Source of the DNA: Salipiger pallidus
GTDB lineage: Bacteria > Pseudomonadota > Alphaproteobacteria > Rhodobacterales > Rhodobacteraceae
DNA length: 64,000 nucleotides
Direction of reading: 5' to 3'
NCBI RefSeq assembly: GCF_014643635.1
Contig: NZ_BMJV01000013.1
Location: 1 to 64,000 of the forward strand
Shown: one piece after another, positions 971 through 10,053 of the stretch
Position numbering within the stretch: the stretch's first letter is position 1
Layout: the number at the start of each line of letters is the position of its first letter
Program-made: the position numbers and the translations under genes
Notes under the pieces: generated by a model
Told to the model about the DNA's origin: nothing
Database searches by the model: none
What the model saw: only the letters and a program-made list of their open reading frames with translations

Positions 971-1588
971 TTGCAGACTGACTGGACCCCCGTCGCCCTG
1001 TCGCATGACATCCCCGTCGCCTCGGCCGCGCCCGGGCGGATCGGGGACACGGCACTTGCCATCTGGCGCAGTGCGTCGGGGCGCATCGCCGCGTGGTCGG
1101 ACCGCTGCCCGCATCGTGGTATGAGGCTGTCGCACGGGTACGTGCGGGGCGAGCGACTGTCATGCATCTACCACGGCTGGAGCTACGGCGAGGATGGTGG
1201 CTGCAAGCGCATCCCGGCCCATCCGGACCTGACCCCTCCCGAGAGCATCCGCGTGCCGGTCTTTGCCTGCCGGGAGGCGTCAGGTGTGGTCTGGGTGGCC
1301 GAGGGCCAGCCAGCAGGCGCGCCGCCCGACCTTGCCGGGTTCAGGGGCCTGCGCAGCCTGCACATCGCCGCCGCCACTGGTGCAATCGCTGAGGTCTTCG
1401 GAGGGGATGGCCCCGTGCTGAGGGTCAAACTCGGGCCCGTCGCGGTGATCGCGCTGGTCCAGGCCTTTGGGGATGAGACGATGCTGCACCTCATGGCACC
1501 CGAAAGCTGCGATCTTGCGACGCTCGATGCGCTGTCGGACGCGGCAGAGGCGCTGCGGCGCAACATCGAGGCGGAGGCAACGGCATGA
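971..1588 (+). CDS. Stand-alone Rieske [2Fe-2S] electron-transfer protein
   Basis: A 205-residue soluble protein. Its first half is a Rieske domain with both ligand pairs: CPHRGM (C-x-H, about residues 42-44) and CIYHGWSYG (C-x-x-H, about 62-65). It should pass single electrons to a partner oxygenase. The second half (about 100 residues) has no recognised motif. The TTG start at 971 is chosen because GGAG lies 7 bases upstream; an upstream ATG at 932 has no ribosome site. The gene overlaps the next by 4 bases (ATGA), implying translational coupling with an oxygenase subunit that has no cluster of its own. In the NdmCDE caffeine demethylase the supplementary Rieske domain is fused to the reductase; here it appears to be a separate polypeptide (inference). 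Confidence 0.8.
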   Translation: MQTDWTPVALSHDIPVASAAPGRIGDTALAIWRSASGRIAAWSDRCPHRGMRLSHGYVRGERLSCIYHGWSYGEDGGCKRIPAHPDLTPPESIRVPVFACREASGVVWVAEGQPAGAPPDLAGFRGLRSLHIAAATGAIAEVFGGDGPVLRVKLGPVAVIALVQAFGDETMLHLMAPESCDLATLDALSDAAEALRRNIEAEATA

Positions 1589-2427
1589 GTGTGGGCGCGA
1601 TGAAGGACCAATGGTATCCGGTCGGCCTGATCTCGGGCGTCACCGAAGAGGGGCGGGACAGCCTGCTCCTGGGAGAGCCGATCCGCATCTTCCTTGACGG
1701 CGGCACCCCGGCGGTGACCGGTGAGGGCGAGCGGCCTCTCCCGGTGGAGCTGCGCTATGGCCATGTCTGGACCTGTCCCGGCACACCCACAAGGCCGCTT
1801 TTCGACATCCCCGAAGCGGACCAGCTGGGGCGCCGCCTCGTGGACGTGGGCGTCTGCCGGGTGCGCTGCTCGCCGCTGAGGGCGGTCGAGAACTTCCTCG
1901 ACATCGCGCATTTCCCCTTCGTGCACACGGACATACTCGGGTCCGAGCCGCACACCGAGGTCACCCGCTACGAGGTCGGCATCCGCGAGGATGTGGACGA
2001 GGTCTGGGCCACCAAGGTGCAGTTCTTCCAGCCGCAAGCCGCGAAGTCCGCCGAGGGTGGCATCACGACCGATTACATGTACCGGGTCTGCGCCCCCACC
2101 TGTTCGGTGCTCTACAAGACCTCGCCGCCCATGCCCGGCGAATGGGATGTCATCGCGCTTTTCGTGCAGCCGCTGACGGAAACGCTGTGCGATGTGTGGC
2201 CGTGGATGGCGCTTTACGATGACGACGCGAGCATGACCGACCTCATCCATTTCCAGCAGCTGATCTTCGTGCAGGACCGGTCGGTCCTCGAAAACCAGCT
2301 GCCCGCGCTGCTGCCGCTCGACCCGGGAATGGAGATCCCGACCCGCGCCGATCTTACATCGGTCGCCTACCGGCGCTGGCTGAAACGGAACGGCTTTACC
2401 TATGGCGCGCAACTGGTGGCCGCATGA
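1585..2427 (+). CDS. Rieske-type oxygenase catalytic subunit lacking the Rieske cluster (NdmC-like)
   Basis: 280 residues, about 70 shorter than a normal oxygenase alpha subunit. It starts like the family (MKDQWYPVG) but the region that should hold C-x-H...C-x-x-H has only strands (PIRIFLDGG, RYGHVWTCPG) and no cluster ligands. The mononuclear iron site is intact: ENFLDIAHFPFVHTD around residues 111-125 gives the N-x-x-D-x-x-H-x4-H pattern, with a distal Asp expected near SMTDLIHFQQ. A non-haem iron monooxygenase or demethylase reaction is therefore likely, fed by the Rieske protein encoded just upstream. NdmC of Pseudomonas putida, which removes the N7-methyl of 7-methylxanthine, has this same Rieske-less architecture. 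The substrate is not shown by the sequence. Confidence 0.72.
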   Translation: MSVGAMKDQWYPVGLISGVTEEGRDSLLLGEPIRIFLDGGTPAVTGEGERPLPVELRYGHVWTCPGTPTRPLFDIPEADQLGRRLVDVGVCRVRCSPLRAVENFLDIAHFPFVHTDILGSEPHTEVTRYEVGIREDVDEVWATKVQFFQPQAAKSAEGGITTDYMYRVCAPTCSVLYKTSPPMPGEWDVIALFVQPLTETLCDVWPWMALYDDDASMTDLIHFQQLIFVQDRSVLENQLPALLPLDPGMEIPTRADLTSVAYRRWLKRNGFTYGAQLVAA

Positions 2428-3119
2428 TCCTGTACGACTACATCCTGTCCCCGTCCTGCTACCGTGTGCGTCTGATGGCGGCGCTGCTGGGGGCAGAGAT
2501 GACCTCGCGGCCGGTGGATTTTCATCCCGGGCGCGAACACCTCTCCCCGGAAATGCTGGCGCTGAACCCGGCCGGCACAATCCCGGTCCTGACCGACGGC
2601 AGCCTCACCTTGCGTGACAGCACCGCCATGCTGAGCTACCTGGCCGCAGGCCATGACCCGGAGTGGCTGGGCGAGGACACCCCCGCCATGCGCGCCACGG
2701 TCGCCCAGTGGCTGGCCTTCTCGCAGCGCCTCACGAGCAGCGCCGGGGCTGCGCGCGCCCATGACATGCTGCACGGGCCAGGCGACATCGACGTACTGCG
2801 CCGCGCCGCCACGCTGGCCCTGCGCGAGCTCGAGGCGGCGATTTCCGCCCAGCGGCGTCGCGGGATGATCTTTCTTGCAGGCCCGCGTCCCACCATAGCC
2901 GACATCGCCTGTTTCCCGCATGTGGCACTGGCTCCGGATGGCGGCCTGCCGCTTGATCCGTACCCGTCGATCCGGTTGTGGATGCGGGAGATCCGTGCGC
3001 TCGATGGCTTCATCGAGATGCCCGGCATCCATCGCCTGCACGAACTGAAGCCAGAGCCGGGCCCCATGCCCGACATCCGGCAGACCAGGACCACCAGGGA
3101 CCCGAAACAGAATGCCTGA
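2424..3119 (+). CDS. Glutathione S-transferase family protein (NdmE-like position)
   Basis: 231 residues with an N-terminal thioredoxin-like GST domain (MILYDYILSPSCYRVRL; the SPSCYR motif gives a Ser/Cys active-site region) and a cis-Pro motif NPAGTIPVL followed by LRDSTAMLSYL. The C-terminal helical domain contains GPRPTIADIACFP, the conserved N-capping box and hydrophobic staple. It overlaps the oxygenase gene by 4 bases and the amidohydrolase gene by 8 bases, so the three are one translational unit. In the caffeine demethylase NdmCDE, the GST homologue NdmE acts as a structural subunit rather than as a transferase; a similar role here is inferred from context. A classical detoxifying or maleylacetoacetate isomerase-like role is the alternative. 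Confidence 0.75.
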   Translation: MILYDYILSPSCYRVRLMAALLGAEMTSRPVDFHPGREHLSPEMLALNPAGTIPVLTDGSLTLRDSTAMLSYLAAGHDPEWLGEDTPAMRATVAQWLAFSQRLTSSAGAARAHDMLHGPGDIDVLRRAATLALRELEAAISAQRRRGMIFLAGPRPTIADIACFPHVALAPDGGLPLDPYPSIRLWMREIRALDGFIEMPGIHRLHELKPEPGPMPDIRQTRTTRDPKQNA

Positions 3120-4467
3120 CTACCTGCTGAAGGGCTGCGCCGCCGTCGTCACCGGCAACGAGGTGCTGCGCGACGTGGACCTGCTCACCAGCGGCCCCGC
3201 CATCAAGGCCATCGGCCCGGACCTTGCGCCCGGCGATGCCGAGGTCATCGAAGCAACCGGCTGGTTCGTCTACCCCGGCCTCGTCAACACGCATCACCAT
3301 TTCTTCCAGTGCTTCGTGCGCAACCGCGCCGATCTGGACTGGACCAAGCTGTCGGTGATCGAATGGCTTGACCGGATCTACCCGGTGTTCTCGCGCCTCA
3401 CGGAGGATTGCTTTTACCACTCCTCGGTGACCGCCCTCGCGGAGCTGGCAAAGCATGGCTGCACCACGGCCTATGATCACCAGTATTGCTTTCCGCGTCA
3501 TGCGGGCACCCGCATCGTCGACCGCCAGTTCGAGGCCGCCGAGAAGATCGGCATCCGTTTCCACGCCGGGCGCGGCACCAACACCCTGCCGAAATCCGAA
3601 GGCTCGACCATCCCCGACGAGATGCTCGAGACCACGGACGGCTTCCTTGCCGATTGCGAACGGCTGCTCGACACCTTCCACGACGCGGGCAAGTTCTCGA
3701 TGCGGCAGGTGTCTGTGGCCCCCTGCCAGCCGGTGAACGGCTACCGCGAGACTTTCGTGGAAAGCATGCGGCTGGCCCGCGACAGGGGCGCGATCCTGCA
3801 CACCCATGTGGGCGAGGGCGAATCCGAAGTCATCCGCGCCCGCCATGGCATGCGCACGGTGGATTACCTCGAAGAGATGGGGTTCTGCGGCCCCGACACC
3901 TTCTACGCACATTGCTGGGAGCTGACCGAGGCCGAGCTGGCCCGGATGGCGGCCAGCGGCACCGGCGTGTCGCATTGCCCCGAGCCGGTCTACCTTGTCG
4001 GGGCCGAGGTCACATCCATCCCCGCCATGCAGGCGCTTGGGGTGCGGATCGGCCTCGGCTGTGACGGTGCGGCGAGCAACGACAATTCGAACCTCATGCA
4101 CTGCCTGCATTCGGCCTACATGCTGCAATGCCTTGTCGCGAACACCCGCAGCCACCCGGTGCCCGATCCCGCCGCCTTCCTGCGCTACGGCACCTCCGGG
4201 GGCGCGTCGCTGCTGGGGCGCGGCGACATCGGCCAGCTGGCGCCGGGCATGGCGGCGGATCTCTTTGCCATCGACAGCCGCCGCATGGATTACGTCGGCA
4301 CCCGCCACGATCCCGAAAGCCTCATCCCCCGCGTCGGCATCGGCATGGCCACGGACATGACGATGGCGAACGGGCGCATCGTCTGGCGCGATGGCGAATT
4401 CCCCGGCCTCGACGAGGCGCAGATGGCCGCCGAGGCCGAAGCCACGCTGGCCACCATCGACTTCTGA
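3112..4467 (+). CDS. Amidohydrolase of the TRZ/ATZ, 8-oxoguanine/guanine deaminase-like family
   Basis: 451 residues, full length for this zinc- or iron-dependent deaminase family. The metal site is visible: PGLVNTHHHFFQ (first H-x-H, about residues 60-65), HTHVGEGESE (catalytic His and Glu, about 231-240), YAHCWEL (metal His) and GLGCDGAASNDNSN (metal Asp and following signature), ending with the composite-domain motif G-x-L-x-P-G-M-AADL-x. The family deaminates exocyclic amines of purines and triazines; 8-oxoguanine deaminase is the nearest I can name. Placed between a putative demethylase and a nucleobase-type importer, it probably deaminates a guanine derivative to a xanthine or urate derivative. 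Exact substrate unknown. Confidence 0.8.
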   Translation: MPDYLLKGCAAVVTGNEVLRDVDLLTSGPAIKAIGPDLAPGDAEVIEATGWFVYPGLVNTHHHFFQCFVRNRADLDWTKLSVIEWLDRIYPVFSRLTEDCFYHSSVTALAELAKHGCTTAYDHQYCFPRHAGTRIVDRQFEAAEKIGIRFHAGRGTNTLPKSEGSTIPDEMLETTDGFLADCERLLDTFHDAGKFSMRQVSVAPCQPVNGYRETFVESMRLARDRGAILHTHVGEGESEVIRARHGMRTVDYLEEMGFCGPDTFYAHCWELTEAELARMAASGTGVSHCPEPVYLVGAEVTSIPAMQALGVRIGLGCDGAASNDNSNLMHCLHSAYMLQCLVANTRSHPVPDPAAFLRYGTSGGASLLGRGDIGQLAPGMAADLFAIDSRRMDYVGTRHDPESLIPRVGIGMATDMTMANGRIVWRDGEFPGLDEAQMAAEAEATLATIDF

Positions 4468-4508
4468 ACACAGCCTTCTGAAAAAACATAAATAACAGGG
4501 AGACAGAC

Positions 4509-5594
4509 ATGACAGAGCTCAACCGCCGCAGGTTCCTCCAGACCTCCGCCGCCACCACCCTTGCCGCCGGTGTGCCCGGCCTTGCCGCCGCGCAGGAGAG
4601 CCTAGGCATGGCGATGATCGTACCCTCGCCGGTGGGCGAGGTCGGCTGGTCCCACTCGCTCGCCATCGCCATGGAGAAGGTGCAGGAAGAGCTGGGCGCG
4701 AACCTCACCATCCTCGAGAACATCCCCGAGGGGCCAGACGCGGACCGGATGATGAACCGCCTCGTGTCGGACGGGAACAAGTTCCTGCTGGCGGGCAGCT
4801 TCGGCTACCAGAACGGCGCCATGCAGATCGCCCGCCGCAACCCGGACGTCACCGTGCTGCACGCCTCGGGCTTCATGGTGGCGCCGAACTTCTCGCCCTT
4901 CGCGGCCAAGTATTTCCAGGGCACCTACCAGATGGGCATGGCCGCCGCCGCCCTCTCGAAGACCGGCAAGCTGGGGTCGGTCGCGGCCTTCGCGATCCCC
5001 GAACTCATCACCTCGATCAATGCCTTCACGCTGGGAGCGCAGGCGGTGAACCCCAACATCGAAGTGTCGGTGGTCTGGGTGAACTCGTGGTTCGATCCGG
5101 CGCAGGAACAGGGCGCTGCCAAGGCGCTGCTGTCGCAAGATTGCGACGTTATCTTCTCGAACGCGCAGGACACGCCCTCGGTCATCACCGTCTGCGAAGA
5201 GGCCGGGGCGTATGTGTTCAACCTCAATTCGTCCATGGCCCAGTTCGCGCCGGAGTACTACCTTGGTTGCGTCTCCACCGACTGGTCGCCCTTCTTCCTC
5301 GAAAGCGCCAAGGCGCATCTCGATGGCACGTTCGGGGGCCGCAACGCCTTCCTCGGGGTCGAGGACGGGGTGGTGCAGGTGCTCGACTGGAACCCGGCGA
5401 TCCCCGAGGACGTGAAGGCGCAGATCGACGAGGTGTCCGCCGCCATCGCCGACGGCTCGTTCCACGTCTTCACGGGCCGCATCCTCAAGCAGGACGAGAC
5501 CGTGGGCGTCGAGGATGGCGAGACGCTGACCGACGAGCAGATCGTGTCCATGGACTGGCACGTGGCCGGCGTCACCACGCCGCTGCCGCAATAA
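4509..5594 (+). CDS. BMP-family ABC transporter substrate-binding protein (Tat-exported)
   Basis: 361 residues of the basic membrane protein/PnrA family, which binds nucleosides, purines and related ligands. The N-terminus has a Tat motif (NRRRFLQTS) and hydrophobic stretch ending at AAAQ, so folded export to the periplasm is expected. Family motifs include SPVGEVGWSHSL near the start of the mature protein, the LLAGSFGY strand, and FPFAAKYFQGTYQMG-type hinge residues (here SPFAAKYFQGTYQMGMAA). It begins 41 bases after the deaminase with an AGGGAGA ribosome site and is followed 3 bases later by the ATPase. Together with the next three genes it forms a complete importer. Confidence 0.88.
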   Translation: MTELNRRRFLQTSAATTLAAGVPGLAAAQESLGMAMIVPSPVGEVGWSHSLAIAMEKVQEELGANLTILENIPEGPDADRMMNRLVSDGNKFLLAGSFGYQNGAMQIARRNPDVTVLHASGFMVAPNFSPFAAKYFQGTYQMGMAAAALSKTGKLGSVAAFAIPELITSINAFTLGAQAVNPNIEVSVVWVNSWFDPAQEQGAAKALLSQDCDVIFSNAQDTPSVITVCEEAGAYVFNLNSSMAQFAPEYYLGCVSTDWSPFFLESAKAHLDGTFGGRNAFLGVEDGVVQVLDWNPAIPEDVKAQIDEVSAAIADGSFHVFTGRILKQDETVGVEDGETLTDEQIVSMDWHVAGVTTPLPQ

Positions 5595-5597
5595 GTC

Positions 5598-7106
5598 ATG
5601 ACGCTTCTCTCGCTCAGGGGGCTGAGCAAGACCTACGGGACCGTACGGGCCAACCGCCACATCGACCTTGATGTGGCGCAAGGGTCGATCCACGCCATCC
5701 TGGGCGAGAATGGCGCGGGCAAGTCCACGCTGATGAAGCTGATCTACGGGGTGGAAACGCCCGACGAAGGCACCCTGCACTGGCATGGCAAGCCGCTGTC
5801 CCTCACTTCGCCCAACGAGGCAAGAGCGCAGGGCATCGGTATGGTCTTCCAGCATTTTTCCTTGTTCGAGACGATGCGCGTGGTGGACAACATCTCGCTT
5901 GTCGTGCCGGGAACATCGCGCGCCTTGGCCGCCCGCATCCGCGCGTTGGGCGAAGACTACGGGCTCGAGGTCGACCCGCTGGCTTATGTCCACGCCCTGT
6001 CCGTAGGCGAACGGCAAAGGGTTGAGATCATCCGCTGCCTGATGACCGACCCGAAGCTGCTGATCCTTGACGAGCCGACCTCGGTTCTGCCGCCGCAATC
6101 GGTGGAGCGGCTGTTCATCACGCTGCGGCGGCTGCGGGACCGAGGGGTGTCGATCCTGTTCATCTCGCACAAGCTCGAGGAGATCCGTGCGCTCTGCGAC
6201 CGCGCCACCATCCTGCGCGATGGCACTGTCACCGGCACCGTCGATCCGCGCGACCATGACGCGCGGGCGCTGGCGCAGATGGTGATCGGGCGCGAGATGC
6301 CCCATGTGACACCGCCCGAAGGAAAGGCCCCCGGCAAGGTGCTGCTGGAGCTTGCGGGGCTGGATCACCGCCCCGACGATCCCTTCGCCCAAGCGCTGCA
6401 TGGCATCAGCCTGACCGTGCGCGAGGGCGAGATCGTCGGCATCGCCGGGGTGTCCGGCAACGGGCAGGGCGAGCTGGCGCGGCTTATCTCCGGCGAGACG
6501 CGCCGCCACCCGCAGGCGGGGGCGGAGGTGCTGATGATGGGCAAGCCCGTGGGCCACCTTGGCCCTGCCGCGCGCCGCCGTCTCGGGCTGGCCTTCGTGC
6601 CCGAGGAACGGCTCGGGCGCGGCGCAGTGCCCGAGATGTCGCTGTCGGACAACAGCCTGCTCACCGCGCATGGGCTTGGCCTCGTGCGGCGCGGGTTGAT
6701 CGACCGTGCGGCAGAGCGCCGCCTGACCAACGATATCATCGCCACCTGCGACGTGCGCACCCCCGGCCCGCAGGCTGAGGCTGGAGCGCTGTCGGGGGGC
6801 AACCTTCAGAAATTCATCGTCGGGCGCGAGATCGCGCTGGCCCCGAAACTGCTTTTTGCCTCGCAGCCCACTTGGGGCGTCGACATCGGGGCGGCCACCG
6901 CCATCCGCCGCCGCCTTGCGGACCTCAAGGCAGGCGGCACCGGCATCCTCGTCATCTCGGAAGAGATCGAGGAACTGTTCGAAATCTGCGACCGTCTCCA
7001 CGTCATCCGCGAAGGCTGCCTGTCGCCATCGCTGAAAGTGAGCGAGATTGGTCCCGAGGACGTGGGCCGTTGGATGATCGGCGCGGAAGGGGGAAAGGCC
7101 GCATGA
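5598..7106 (+). CDS. ABC transporter ATP-binding protein, duplicated ATPase (nucleoside/purine type)
   Basis: 502 residues made of two fused nucleotide-binding domains, the layout of sugar- and nucleoside-type importers. Domain 1 has Walker A GENGAGKST (about residue 37), a signature read as LSVGERQRVE, and Walker B LLILDEPTSVL. Domain 2 has a degenerate Walker A region (GVSGNGQGELAR), signature LSGGNLQKF and a relaxed Walker B (LLFASQPTWGVD), the usual asymmetry of this family. It energises uptake with the two downstream permeases. The stop overlaps the start of the first permease (ATGA), indicating coupled translation. Confidence 0.9.
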   Translation: MTLLSLRGLSKTYGTVRANRHIDLDVAQGSIHAILGENGAGKSTLMKLIYGVETPDEGTLHWHGKPLSLTSPNEARAQGIGMVFQHFSLFETMRVVDNISLVVPGTSRALAARIRALGEDYGLEVDPLAYVHALSVGERQRVEIIRCLMTDPKLLILDEPTSVLPPQSVERLFITLRRLRDRGVSILFISHKLEEIRALCDRATILRDGTVTGTVDPRDHDARALAQMVIGREMPHVTPPEGKAPGKVLLELAGLDHRPDDPFAQALHGISLTVREGEIVGIAGVSGNGQGELARLISGETRRHPQAGAEVLMMGKPVGHLGPAARRRLGLAFVPEERLGRGAVPEMSLSDNSLLTAHGLGLVRRGLIDRAAERRLTNDIIATCDVRTPGPQAEAGALSGGNLQKFIVGREIALAPKLLFASQPTWGVDIGAATAIRRRLADLKAGGTGILVISEEIEELFEICDRLHVIREGCLSPSLKVSEIGPEDVGRWMIGAEGGKAA

Positions 7107-8167
7107 TCACTCTTGTTCGCCGAAGCGCCGCGTCGCGCCGCATGGCCGTGGCCGCGCCCGTGGCAGCTCTGCTGGTGACGATCCTGCTCAATCTCGCGCT
7201 CTATACGGTCATGGGCAAGGATCCGCGCGCGGTGTTCTACGCCATGCTGCTCGAGCCGTTCATCTCGTGGCCCTCGTTCTCCGAAGTTCTGCTGAAGATG
7301 ACGCCGTTGCTGCTGATCGCCCAAGGGCTCGCCATCGGGTTCCGTGCCAAGGTCATAAACATCGGCGCCGAAGGGCAGTTTCTGTTGGGGGCGATCTTCG
7401 CCTCGGCGATCCCGGTATGGTATCCGCAGGCCACCGGACCATGGATCTGGCCGTCGATGCTGGTGCTGGGCACTTTGGGGGGCGCGCTCTGGGCGGTGAT
7501 CCCGGCGTTCTGGAGGGTGCGGCTGAATGCGTCGGAAATCCTCGTGACGCTGATGATGAACCTCATCGCGGTGCAGCTTCTGGCATGGCTGCTGGTGGGG
7601 CCGTGGAAAGACCCCATGGGCTTCAATTTCCCGCAGACGGTGATGTTCCAGTGGGACGCGATGCTGCCCACGCTGATCCCCGGCACGCGAGTGAGCGTCG
7701 CGCTGCTGCTGGCCTTTGCCGCCTCTGGCGCAGCCTACCTCTGGATGCAGCGCAGTTTCGGCGGCTACCAGATGGTGGTCGGCGGGCTGGCCCCTCAGGC
7801 GGCGTGCTACGCGGGCTTCAGCCAGGGGCGCGCGGTGTGGCTGTCGCTGCTCATCGGAGGGGCAGCGGCGGGCGTTGCGGGCGCGGCCGAGGTGGCGGGG
7901 CCCATGGGCCAGCTGCAGCGCAGCATCTCGTCGGGCTACGGCTATTCGGCCATCATCGTGGCCTATCTGGGAGGGCTACACCCGGTGGGCATCGTGCTCT
8001 CCTCACTGCTGATCGCCGCGCTGGCGATCGGCGGCGACAATGCCATGGTCTCGGCCGGGTTGCCGGTCTCGGCGGTCGAGGTGTTTCAGGGCACGCTGCT
8101 GGTGGCGTACCTCGCGGCGGTCGTGCTGGTGCGTTACCGGCTGGTGCGCAGTGGGGTGCCGGCATGA
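7103..8167 (+). CDS. ABC transporter permease 1 (BMP/nucleoside type)
   Basis: 354 residues of the BPD_transp_2 family with about eight to ten hydrophobic segments, starting MITLVRRSAASRRMAVAAP. The conserved cytoplasmic loop for ATPase contact is visible around GLAIGFRAKVINIGAEGQFLLGA, the typical FRAxxxNIGxEGQ motif. It overlaps both neighbours by 4 bases. The longer open frame that extends upstream lies inside the ATPase gene and is not used. It pairs with the next permease to form the membrane channel. Confidence 0.9.
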   Translation: MITLVRRSAASRRMAVAAPVAALLVTILLNLALYTVMGKDPRAVFYAMLLEPFISWPSFSEVLLKMTPLLLIAQGLAIGFRAKVINIGAEGQFLLGAIFASAIPVWYPQATGPWIWPSMLVLGTLGGALWAVIPAFWRVRLNASEILVTLMMNLIAVQLLAWLLVGPWKDPMGFNFPQTVMFQWDAMLPTLIPGTRVSVALLLAFAASGAAYLWMQRSFGGYQMVVGGLAPQAACYAGFSQGRAVWLSLLIGGAAAGVAGAAEVAGPMGQLQRSISSGYGYSAIIVAYLGGLHPVGIVLSSLLIAALAIGGDNAMVSAGLPVSAVEVFQGTLLVAYLAAVVLVRYRLVRSGVPA

Positions 8168-9075
8168 GCGCGATAGGTTTCATTTTGGCTGGCATGCTGG
8201 CGGCGGCGATGCCGTTCCTGCTGGCGGCGCTTGGCGAGCTGGTGTGCGAACGGGCAGGGGTGCTCAACCTCGGGATTGAGGGAATGATGGCGCTGGGGGC
8301 GGTGGTGGGTTTCATCATCGTACATTCCTCCGGCGGACATCTGCTGGGGTTCGCGGGGGCAGGCCTCGCGAGCATGGTGCTGGCGCTGGTCTTCGGCTGG
8401 CTGGCGCTGGCGGTGCGGGCCAACCAGGTGGCGGCGGGGCTGGCCATCGGCATCCTCGGCTCCGGGCTGTCGGCGCTCTTCGGCAAGAGCTTCGAAAGCC
8501 AGACGGTCACCGGCCTGCCCAAACACGCGCTGCCTTGGCTGTCCGAGCTGCCGGTCCTGGGCGGGCTTTTCCGGCAGGACGTGGCGGTCTGGCTGGGGCT
8601 TCTGGCGGCGCTGGCGATCTGGGCGCTCTTGCGGTTCACCAAGCTGGGGCTGGTGATCCGCGCGGTGGGCGAGAACCCTCATGCTGCCCGCGCCATCGGC
8701 TACAAGGTCATTGCGATCCGCTACGCTGCGGTGGCCTTCGGCGGGCTCATGGCGGGGTTCGCGGGGGCCTATGCGTCAACGGTCTACACCCCACTCTGGG
8801 CGGAAGGCATGATTGCCGGGCGCGGCTGGATCGCCGTGGCGCTGGTGGTCTTTGCCACCTGGATGCCGGGGCGGCTGGTGTTCGGCGCGATGCTGTTCGG
8901 GGCGGTGTCGCTTTCGCAGCTTGCGGCGCAGGCGTCAGGGGTTGCTCTGAACTCGCAGTTGCTCTCGAGCCTTCCTTACGTCATGACCATCCTCGTGCTC
9001 GGGGTGATCTCGGCGAACCGGGGGCTGTTGAAGATGAACGGCGTTGCATCGCTGGGCGAGCCCTTCGGGCCATGA
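8164..9075 (+). CDS. ABC transporter permease 2 (BMP/nucleoside type)
   Basis: 303 residues, highly hydrophobic, with the paralogous motif ELVCERAGVLNLGIEGMMALGA near residues 22-43 (shown in two parts: ELVCERAGVLNLG and IEGMMALGA) and VGENPHAARAIGYKV in the large cytoplasmic loop. These place it in the same permease family as its neighbour. The ATG at 8164 overlaps the previous stop. It ends the importer operon; 57 bases separate it from the PHP gene, so that gene may be read from the same transcript. Confidence 0.9.
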   Translation: MSAIGFILAGMLAAAMPFLLAALGELVCERAGVLNLGIEGMMALGAVVGFIIVHSSGGHLLGFAGAGLASMVLALVFGWLALAVRANQVAAGLAIGILGSGLSALFGKSFESQTVTGLPKHALPWLSELPVLGGLFRQDVAVWLGLLAALAIWALLRFTKLGLVIRAVGENPHAARAIGYKVIAIRYAAVAFGGLMAGFAGAYASTVYTPLWAEGMIAGRGWIAVALVVFATWMPGRLVFGAMLFGAVSLSQLAAQASGVALNSQLLSSLPYVMTILVLGVISANRGLLKMNGVASLGEPFGP

Positions 9076-9132: not shown

Positions 9133-10053
9133 ATGCAGCTTTCGGCCTTCACAGCGCCCGGCCGGTTCTGGCGCGGCAACCTTCACACCCATTCCACCCT
9201 CTCAGACGGTGTCCTGCCGCCCGAAGAGGTCTGCCGCCGCTACAAGGCCGAGGGCTATGATTTCATTGCCCTTACCGACCATCTCATCGGCGCTTTCGAC
9301 TACCCGCTGGCCGACACGCGGCCCTTCCGGGACAAGGACTTCACCACTCTCATCGGGGCCGAGCTGCACTCGGGCGCCATGCAGAATGGTGAGCTGTGGC
9401 ATATCCTTGCGGTGGGCCTGCCCTTCGGCTTCACGCCGCCGGAGGCGCCGGGCTTTTCGCCGGTGCCGGGGCAGGAGAGCGGCCCCGAGATCGCAGCCCG
9501 TGCCCGCGCCGCCGGAGCCTTCGTGGCGGTGGCGCACCCGCAATGGTCCGGCATGACGCTGGATGACGCCCGTAGCATCAAGGCTGCGCATGCGGTCGAG
9601 GTCTACAACCACGGCTGTGCCACTGGCTGTGACCGGGCAGACGGCTTCCACACCGCCGACCTGCTGCTGAGCGAAGGGCGCAGGCTGTCACTCGTCGCTA
9701 CGGACGATGCGCATTTCTCCGAGCCAGATCACTTCGGCGGCTGGGTCATGGTGAAGGCCGAAGCCAATGATCCGGACCTGATCCTCGAGGCTCTGAAGGG
9801 GGGAGACTTCTACTCGTCCCAAGGTCCCGAACTGCGCAATGTCACGGTCAAAGAGGACAGCCTCACCGTGACGTCCAGCGCCGTTACGACGATCATCGTG
9901 CAGGGCCACGGCAGCGCCGCCGTTGCGCGCCATGGCCAGTCCATGACCCAAGGCGCGATCCCGCTCACGCGTTTCGCCGGCAGCCCGTGGCTGAGGGTCA
10001 CGATCATTGACGCCGCCGGCCGCAAGGCGTGGTCCAACCCGATCTGGCGCTGA
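9133..10053 (+). CDS. PHP-domain metal-dependent phosphoesterase (CehA/McbA-like)
   Basis: 306 residues. The PHP motifs are clear: NLHTHSTLSDG (residues about 16-26), FIALTDH (about 44-50), VAVAHPQW, and VATDDAHF near residue 195, giving the histidines and aspartates that bind up to three metals. Members of this group hydrolyse phosphate esters or act in nucleotide and carbamate metabolism. The last 60 residues form an extra beta-rich tail. It lies 57 bases after the importer with a GGAGA ribosome site and is followed by an inverted-repeat element, so it may be the last gene of the purine-like operon; substrate unknown. Confidence 0.78.
   Translation: MQLSAFTAPGRFWRGNLHTHSTLSDGVLPPEEVCRRYKAEGYDFIALTDHLIGAFDYPLADTRPFRDKDFTTLIGAELHSGAMQNGELWHILAVGLPFGFTPPEAPGFSPVPGQESGPEIAARARAAGAFVAVAHPQWSGMTLDDARSIKAAHAVEVYNHGCATGCDRADGFHTADLLLSEGRRLSLVATDDAHFSEPDHFGGWVMVKAEANDPDLILEALKGGDFYSSQGPELRNVTVKEDSLTVTSSAVTTIIVQGHGSAAVARHGQSMTQGAIPLTRFAGSPWLRVTIIDAAGRKAWSNPIWR

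Follow-up and report, generated by a model that had tools for sequence, protein, structure and literature searches.

What compound does a bacterium take up and break down with an operon that places the separated parts of a Rieske oxygenase beside an amidohydrolase and a complete importer? The question is raised by eight genes at 971-9075 of a 64,000-nucleotide stretch of Salipiger pallidus DNA (NZ_BMJV01000013.1, positions 1 to 64,000; the whole stretch is called the window here), which belongs to contig 13 of an assembly that comprises 23 contigs and 4.44 Mb. The genes lie on one strand, and their frames, recomputed from the sequence, are open without internal stops, with successive junctions of -4, -4, -8, +41, +3, -4, and -4 bases (Table 1). 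An earlier note on this DNA had described eight tightly packed same-strand genes for a Rieske protein, a Rieske-less oxygenase subunit, a glutathione S-transferase (GST) homolog, a deaminase, and a BMP-type ABC importer, and the recomputed frames, junctions, and Pfam matches agree with it. Its suggestion of a substituted guanine as substrate is supported by the active-site residues of the amidohydrolase, the guanine-type deaminases of related loci, and the binding site of the importer. We suggest that the operon probably serves to take up methylated guanine bases and turn them into xanthine, using an N2,N2-dimethylguanine hydrolase (NdmH) and a split N-demethylase similar to NdmCDE of the Pseudomonas putida caffeine pathway.

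A conserved operon with an NdmH-type amidohydrolase

A scan of a genome collection gave at least 543 confirmed places, of which the best 80 were kept; counts out of 80 refer to these loci, which by record title come mainly from Rhizobium, Mesorhizobium, and Rhodobacteraceae-type organisms. All eight genes are found in the same order on one strand in 66 of them, and the remaining 14 comprise contigs that end early, loci with only the Rieske, oxygenase, and GST genes (the trio), two loci without the deaminase, and three with a different order and deaminase. In the family and class samples, oxygenase matches at E ≤ 1e-10 occur in 23/295 and 22/385 genomes, respectively, weak full-length relatives included. 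Weak matches at ~25-33% identity, most of them full-length oxygenases, were dropped together with a short partial one; this left 29 large regions, among them one whose Rieske match is a full-length oxygenase (L064) and one with broken oxygenase matches (L063). The complete set in order is present in 11 of 32 further regions: eight of these 29, and all three Rhizobiaceae plasmids, which belong to Rhizobium and Shinella (L085-L087) and include R. etli p42c and R. johnstonii pRL10. Because the eight genes recur in order in so many of the best loci and further regions, the set is kept together beyond chance. A variant order, with Rieske, oxygenase, GST, ATPase, permeases, BMP, and guanine deaminase genes, is seen in L163 (16362), L167 (16195), and L168 (16234).

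The fourth gene encodes an amidohydrolase. According to the main text of Drexler et al. 2026 (PMC13054789), homologs of AtzB hydrolyze N2,N2-dimethylguanine, with xanthine and dimethylamine as products, and do so 150-3600 times better than they hydrolyze guanine. The authors describe NdmH as a new class of enzyme and say that they are still looking into its physiological context; they also report that exchanging CQNN for SSII impairs dimethylguanine hydrolysis and yields efficient hydroxyatrazine hydrolases. We compared the window amidohydrolase with the 13 active-site residues named for poNdmH (Q74, W85, W93, Y98, Y133, N165, C213, Q214, N217, E243, H275, P300, and D326), relying on the published residue numbers and not on the poNdmH sequence itself. 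All 13 residues are present, at a constant offset of -8; in a Pleomorphomonas homolog (L142) the offset is 0, so that they carry the same numbers as those published for the enzyme from Pleomorphomonas oryzae. The full set is also found in 68 of 69 proteins of the best 80 loci, the exception being a broken 343-residue fragment in L155, as well as in all eight eight-gene family loci and the three plasmids (the weak amidohydrolase of L107, at 26%, was left out of this comparison). Other amidohydrolases near related oxygenases have at most five of the 13 without gaps.

As a control we used an Arthrobacter plasmid gene annotated "amidohydrolase" and adjoining atzC, which we take to be AtzB from its position and residues. 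It has I, S, S, and I at the four diagnostic sites, as published. The window protein is 57% identical to this gene and 32% identical to an annotated 8-oxoguanine deaminase; it thus resembles AtzB, the hydroxyatrazine ethylaminohydrolase, but has CQNN where the AtzB-like gene has SSII. Among plasmids, 128 of 175 records with a match at E ≤ 1e-60 have at least 60% identity; below 60%, the matches listed begin with two AtzB-like genes at 57-58% and continue at 34-41%, with four annotated 8-oxoguanine deaminases. We therefore assign gene 4, from its residues, to NdmH, which is predicted to replace an N2-dimethylamino or amino group at C2 by oxygen.

The distribution of this enzyme follows that of the operon. 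In the family genomes, where up to five candidate deaminases were scored per genome, NdmH-type genes (67-100% identity) occur in at least 9 of 295 genomes, the window included, the next of the matches listed being at 40%; all nine genomes, among the matches listed, carry the complete eight-gene operon (the window, L065-L071, and L075). Across the 29 regions, an NdmH-like deaminase is present in nine (one only 36% identical), a GuaD-type enzyme in seven, and at least one of these in 15. In L163, L167, L168, and L092, the GuaD-type enzyme next to the trio scores 416-434 bits, above the guanine deaminase cut-off of 375. Since two different guanine-type deaminases occur in the same setting, a guanine-type substrate is indicated. 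The S. pallidus genome has a separate guanine deaminase, an 8-oxoguanine-type deaminase, and a xanthine dehydrogenase, and therefore plain guanine would need no such operon.

The importer is consistent with this substrate. The nearest solved relatives of its binding protein are 3s99, modelled with adenine, and AtzT (6pi5), solved with guanine bound and reported to bind guanine at 110 nM. The protein belongs to the same family as AtzT and keeps most of its guanine contacts: Ser97, Phe98, Glu165, Trp194, and Asn218 are unchanged, while Tyr45 is replaced by Trp47. These six residues of the window protein are present in 71/71 other operon binding proteins. BMP genes occur in 18 of the 29 regions; the S. 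pallidus genome has four in 4.44 Mb, and we estimate that a random 18-kb stretch holds one in <2% of cases. The purine-type importer of the earlier note is supported, and its ligand is likely guanine-like.

A split oxygenase related to NdmCDE

Among the eight genes, the Rieske motif C-x-H...C-x-x-H is confined to gene 1 and the iron motif D-x2-H-x4-H to gene 2, so that this is not an ordinary single-chain Rieske oxygenase: the Rieske and 2-His motifs sit in separate proteins. Such an iron-ligand motif, and electron transfer between subunits, are general properties of Rieske oxygenases. Residues D106, H109, H114, and D231 of the catalytic subunit are invariant in 34/34 and 24/24 sequences in two alignments. 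In profile comparisons with full-length oxygenases, the catalytic subunit aligns over nearly its whole length (267 columns) with a gap at the Rieske-cluster stretch, and the Rieske protein aligns over 121 columns that cover the Rieske domain only. Aligned with NdmD-type fusions, the Rieske protein matches weakly past the Rieske domain and, at 205 residues, stops before the reductase part. Its AlphaFold model (mean pLDDT 96.3) matches SxtT and GxtA in Foldseek over 256-272 columns including gaps, with a query TM score of 0.71-0.78; because of this match, its C-terminal half looks like a shortened oxygenase domain without the iron motif. For the catalytic subunit, the model (mean pLDDT 84.7) is also closest to SxtT/GxtA (0.81-0.88), followed by NdmA/NdmB (0.69-0.73); its pLDDT falls below 50 at residues 110-124 beside the iron site. 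We infer that both proteins descend from full-length oxygenase subunits, of which each lost the part that the other kept, giving a Rieske oxygenase split in two that occurs both with and without fusion of the Rieske part to a reductase.

For comparison with NdmA-E we used the proteins of L228 (8796-22060 on the 578 kb plasmid pTmex-577K of Pseudomonas putida MT178). This locus has genes for two full-length oxygenases, one of them NdmA-like (764.6 bits over 350 residues to crystallized NdmA), for an oxygenase without Rieske cluster, a Rieske-reductase fusion of 588 residues, and a GST, as well as formaldehyde genes. We take it as a genuine ndmABCDE cluster because its gene set resembles that of strain CBB5 as outlined in a review. 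Identity is about 42% for each of the first three window genes: 41.9% over 272 residues between the catalytic subunit and NdmC, 41.9% over 117 residues between the Rieske protein and residues 7-123 of NdmD, and 42.0% between the GST and NdmE (167 bits, where two unrelated GSTs score 33 and 43 bits). In the final tree, from which three long-branch rows of the first were removed and which has eight full-length outgroup rows, the Rieske-less oxygenases, including those of the window and NdmC, form a clade apart from NdmA, NdmB, and HpxD (support 100/99); within it, NdmC and three other fused-type rows are sister to a 37-row split clade containing the window (96/87). The kinship that the earlier note saw between genes 1-3 and the NdmD N terminus, NdmC, and NdmE is thereby supported. 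The split and fused labels require three changes on this tree; fusion or fission was therefore repeated, or reversed. Rieske-reductase fusions are also found in L061, L082, and L083 of the same class or family.

The system is thus like NdmCDE in having a Rieske-less catalytic subunit, a Rieske domain supplied in trans, and a GST-like third subunit. Unlike NdmD, the window Rieske subunit stands as a protein of its own and lacks the reductase half, and the eight genes include no reductase, NCS2 permease, or formaldehyde gene, having a BMP importer and NdmH instead. Searches of the 64-kb window with one VanB-type and two NdmD-type reductase queries gave a best match of E 0.054 over 28 residues, which, for these types of reductase, bears out the previous statement that it holds no dedicated reductase. 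At the level of sequence, the analogy with NdmCDE stands, apart from the separate Rieske subunit and the missing reductase.

Related loci combine these parts in other ways. A conjugative plasmid of Komagataeibacter nataicola from kombucha (pKNA08; L093, 2911-9462 and 13897-14976) has two split Rieske-oxygenase-GST trios, a VanB-type reductase, one oxygenase nearest NdmA (559 bits), and another about equally near NdmB and NdmA (434 and 418 bits). It is likely a caffeine N-demethylation island in a tea-culture bacterium, and looks as if the split trio did there the job of NdmCDE in caffeine breakdown. The Sinorhizobium meliloti pSymA cluster (L089, 2224-12222) shares with the operon Rieske-less oxygenases, a GST, and a BMP importer, which is divergent in L089; it differs in having a fused NdmD-type Rieske-reductase and two oxygenases, and no NdmH is annotated in the fetched stretch. 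Xanthine dehydrogenase genes lie a few kilobases downstream of it. On Rhizobium tumorigenes pRt932 (L092, 2176-11212), a GST gene and a free-standing Rieske gene are divergent from genes for a BMP importer, a Rieske-less oxygenase, and guanine deaminase.

Candidate pathway and competing explanations

If the operon acts as we suggest, the BMP-type importer would take up guanine-like bases, and the NdmH-type amidohydrolase would put oxygen in place of the N2-dimethylamino (or amino) group at C2, an activity known from AtzB homologs with the same residues. In the split demethylase, a reductase encoded outside the operon would supply electrons to the free-standing Rieske subunit, which would hand them on to the mononuclear iron in the catalytic subunit; the GST-like protein would be a structural partner. 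The oxygenase would oxidize an N-methyl group, to be released as formaldehyde. Acting at N7, it could convert 7-methylguanine, or 7-methylxanthine derived from this base or from 2,2,7-trimethylguanine, toward xanthine, which the xanthine dehydrogenase of the genome would oxidize.

By analogy, the demethylated position is most likely N7. A ring methyl group is what would be left for the oxygenase, because NdmH already handles the N2-methyl groups; NdmC, together with NdmD and NdmE, removes the N7-methyl of 7-methylxanthine, as summarized in the review cited above for CBB5; and the split trios of L093 sit beside NdmA/NdmB-like oxygenases, as in caffeine breakdown. These are arguments rather than proof.

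Methylguanines are modified bases of RNA, left over from its turnover, and 2,2,7-trimethylguanine is the base that caps small nuclear and spliced-leader RNAs. NdmH could turn the latter base into 7-methylxanthine by removing its N2-dimethylamino group, and the split oxygenase could take this product on to xanthine by removing the N7-methyl. A narrower version of our proposal, in which the operon is dedicated to hypermethylated guanines of eukaryotic RNA such as this one, seems to us rather doubtful. If it is true, soil, root-nodule, and marine bacteria would feed in this way on modified bases from plants, algae, and animals.

Several observations weigh against the proposed pathway. NdmH alone turns N2,N2-dimethylguanine into xanthine, and therefore the oxygenase would need another, putative methyl group as its target; the term "7-methyl" is absent from the main text of PMC13054789, and with no more than 42% identity to NdmC, the window oxygenase may demethylate a different position. 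The operon is complete except for the deaminase between the GST and BMP genes in L120 (11502-11581) and L144 (3258-3390), and several of the best 80 loci have the oxygenase trio without importer or deaminase. With no reductase in the operon, the VanB-type query finds only two matches in the genome, one of 27% on contig 1, near another Rieske gene, and one of 32% on contig 12. In the binding protein, the AtzT contact Asn169 is replaced by Ser and Asn220 by Asp221, after a one-residue insertion; the first site is Ser in 69 and Thr in two of the 71 other operon proteins, and the second agrees with the window. Asn218 is replaced by Leu or Ile in the GuaD-type loci and differs in fused-type loci as well. 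The trees have few outgroups (seven or eight full-length oxygenases), and the first, with seven and without L228, did not resolve the placement of the NdmC-type proteins. The earlier note had named clustering with unrelated demethylases as a result to look for; no such clustering is seen, in trees whose outgroup rows include no vanillate or carnitine enzyme.

Four other explanations have to be set against N-demethylation of a ring position. The oxygenase might instead remove the N2-methyl groups, from N2,N2-dimethylguanine through N2-methylguanine to guanine, in parallel to NdmH and with a guanine deaminase finishing the work. This would fit loci that carry a true guanine deaminase as well as those that have no deaminase, where the housekeeping GuaD would act. 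We consider it unlikely, since the route would be redundant beside NdmH, yet all nine NdmH-type genes, among the matches listed, adjoin the oxygenase, and the nearest characterized relative, NdmC, is assigned to N7 in the review. Hydroxylation of the purine ring, for example at C8, is suggested by HpxD, a distant relative (27-30%) annotated as a molybdenum-cofactor-independent xanthine hydroxylase subunit; that the window oxygenase groups with NdmC, away from HpxD, and that the genome already has a xanthine dehydrogenase make this a good deal less probable.

Kinship with atrazine proteins raises the prospect of a pathway for a triazine or some other guanine-like compound, natural or man-made, instead of a methylated nucleobase: the deaminase is related to AtzB and the binding protein to AtzT, both of which belong to atrazine use, and SxtT and GxtA, the best structural matches of the oxygenase, act on saxitoxin-type compounds. 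We regard this as very improbable, given that the deaminase has CQNN, where the published exchange to SSII shifts activity to hydroxyatrazine (PMC13054789, main text), and that the operon is common in rhizobia and Rhodobacterales. Least credible of all, and almost certainly wrong, is degradation of 8-oxoguanine, which follows the deaminase type assumed in the earlier note. The 8-oxoguanine deaminase model is indeed the best NCBIfam match of gene 4, but its 369.3 bits remain below the NF006055 cut-off of 532; an annotated 8-oxoguanine-type deaminase and the one in the same genome, which thus has another gene with that signature, differ from the window protein at W85, N165, Q214, N217, and P300. 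That part of the note is replaced by the NdmH type. Gene 4 also falls below the TIGR02967 cut-off for guanine deaminase GuaD (112.4 versus 375.4 bits).

Demethylation and hydrolysis of methylated guanines thus being the preferred explanation, the operon offers a candidate physiological context for NdmH and, if the proposal is true, defines a catabolic route for methylated guanines. The main text of PMC13054789 contains neither "Rieske" nor "transporter", so that the operon context is a new addition. In the open-licence literature, judged by titles and abstract openings, we found no paper describing a bacterial pathway for methylated guanines, none joining dimethylguanine with Rieske or with operon and transporter, and none joining 8-oxoguanine deaminase with Rieske. 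The operon also brings together, in one natural setting, proteins related to AtzB and AtzT of atrazine use.

A ninth gene and the limits of the operon

Small same-strand open reading frames (ORFs) clustered together in 30 of 81 loci, and they revealed a ninth member of the set. In 88 of 92 loci, a relative of this small protein lies on the same strand a short way ahead of the Rieske gene (77 of the best 80, seven of eight family operon loci, the three plasmids, and the window itself). The gene set of the earlier note therefore stands for its eight genes and falls short as the complete conserved set, this gene having been overlooked. Relatives in L085 and L087 are publicly annotated as acylphosphatase; they score 20.7 and 16.0 bits against a Pfam cut-off of 22.5, the window protein has no Pfam match, and the protein stays below the cut-offs of the NCBIfam acylphosphatase models. 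The catalytic residues of acylphosphatases are not evident in the aligned seeds. A profile built from the small proteins finds relatives in 17 of the 29 sampled regions, as well as in L092 and in L093, and has no match in the eight loci searched that have an NdmD-type fusion (L061, L082, L083, L088-L091, and L228), a further difference from NdmCDE. The gene looks like a marker of the split type, and its product may be an accessory part of this oxygenase; the odds of the competing explanations are unchanged by it.

Table 1. Genes of the operon and the small gene ahead of it, with positions in the window
Feature	Position	Strand	Evidence
Small conserved protein, ~84 residues, acylphosphatase-like by weak matches	~577-831 (start codon uncertain)	+	139 bases before the Rieske gene
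Free-standing Rieske [2Fe-2S] subunit, 205 residues, counterpart of the NdmD N-terminal part	971-1588	+	Rieske PF00355, 76.6 bits
Catalytic non-heme iron subunit without Rieske cluster, NdmC-like	1585-2427	+	VanA_C PF19112, no Rieske match
Glutathione S-transferase-like subunit, NdmE-like	2424-3119	+	GST domains; 42.0% identity to NdmE
Amidohydrolase, N2,N2-dimethylguanine hydrolase (NdmH) type	3112-4467	+	Amidohydro_1; 13/13 published poNdmH residues
BMP-family periplasmic binding protein, guanine/purine type	4509-5594	+	Bmp PF02608; solved relatives 3s99 and AtzT 6pi5
ABC importer ATPase	5598-7106	+	ABC_tran, 157.7 bits
ABC importer permease 1	7103-8167	+	BPD_transp_2, 113.1 bits
ABC importer permease 2	8164-9075	+	BPD_transp_2, 116.6 bits

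The Rieske gene starts with TTG after GGAG, consistent with its homologs, and an in-frame ATG lies at 932. Among other neighbors, an SDR-like ORF is common to 12 of 81 loci and the rest to fewer; the other ORF clusters present in more than 12 we take, from a sample row only, to be out-of-frame ORFs overlapping real genes. The window begins with the C terminus of formyltetrahydrofolate deformylase (purU, 2-265), upstream of the operon, and 57 bases past the operon end lies a gene for a PHP-domain CehA/McbA-like metallohydrolase (9133-10053). Both were considered as operon members and rejected: each is found beside the operon in only one of the 29 regions, the same-genus L065, and in none of the best 80 loci.

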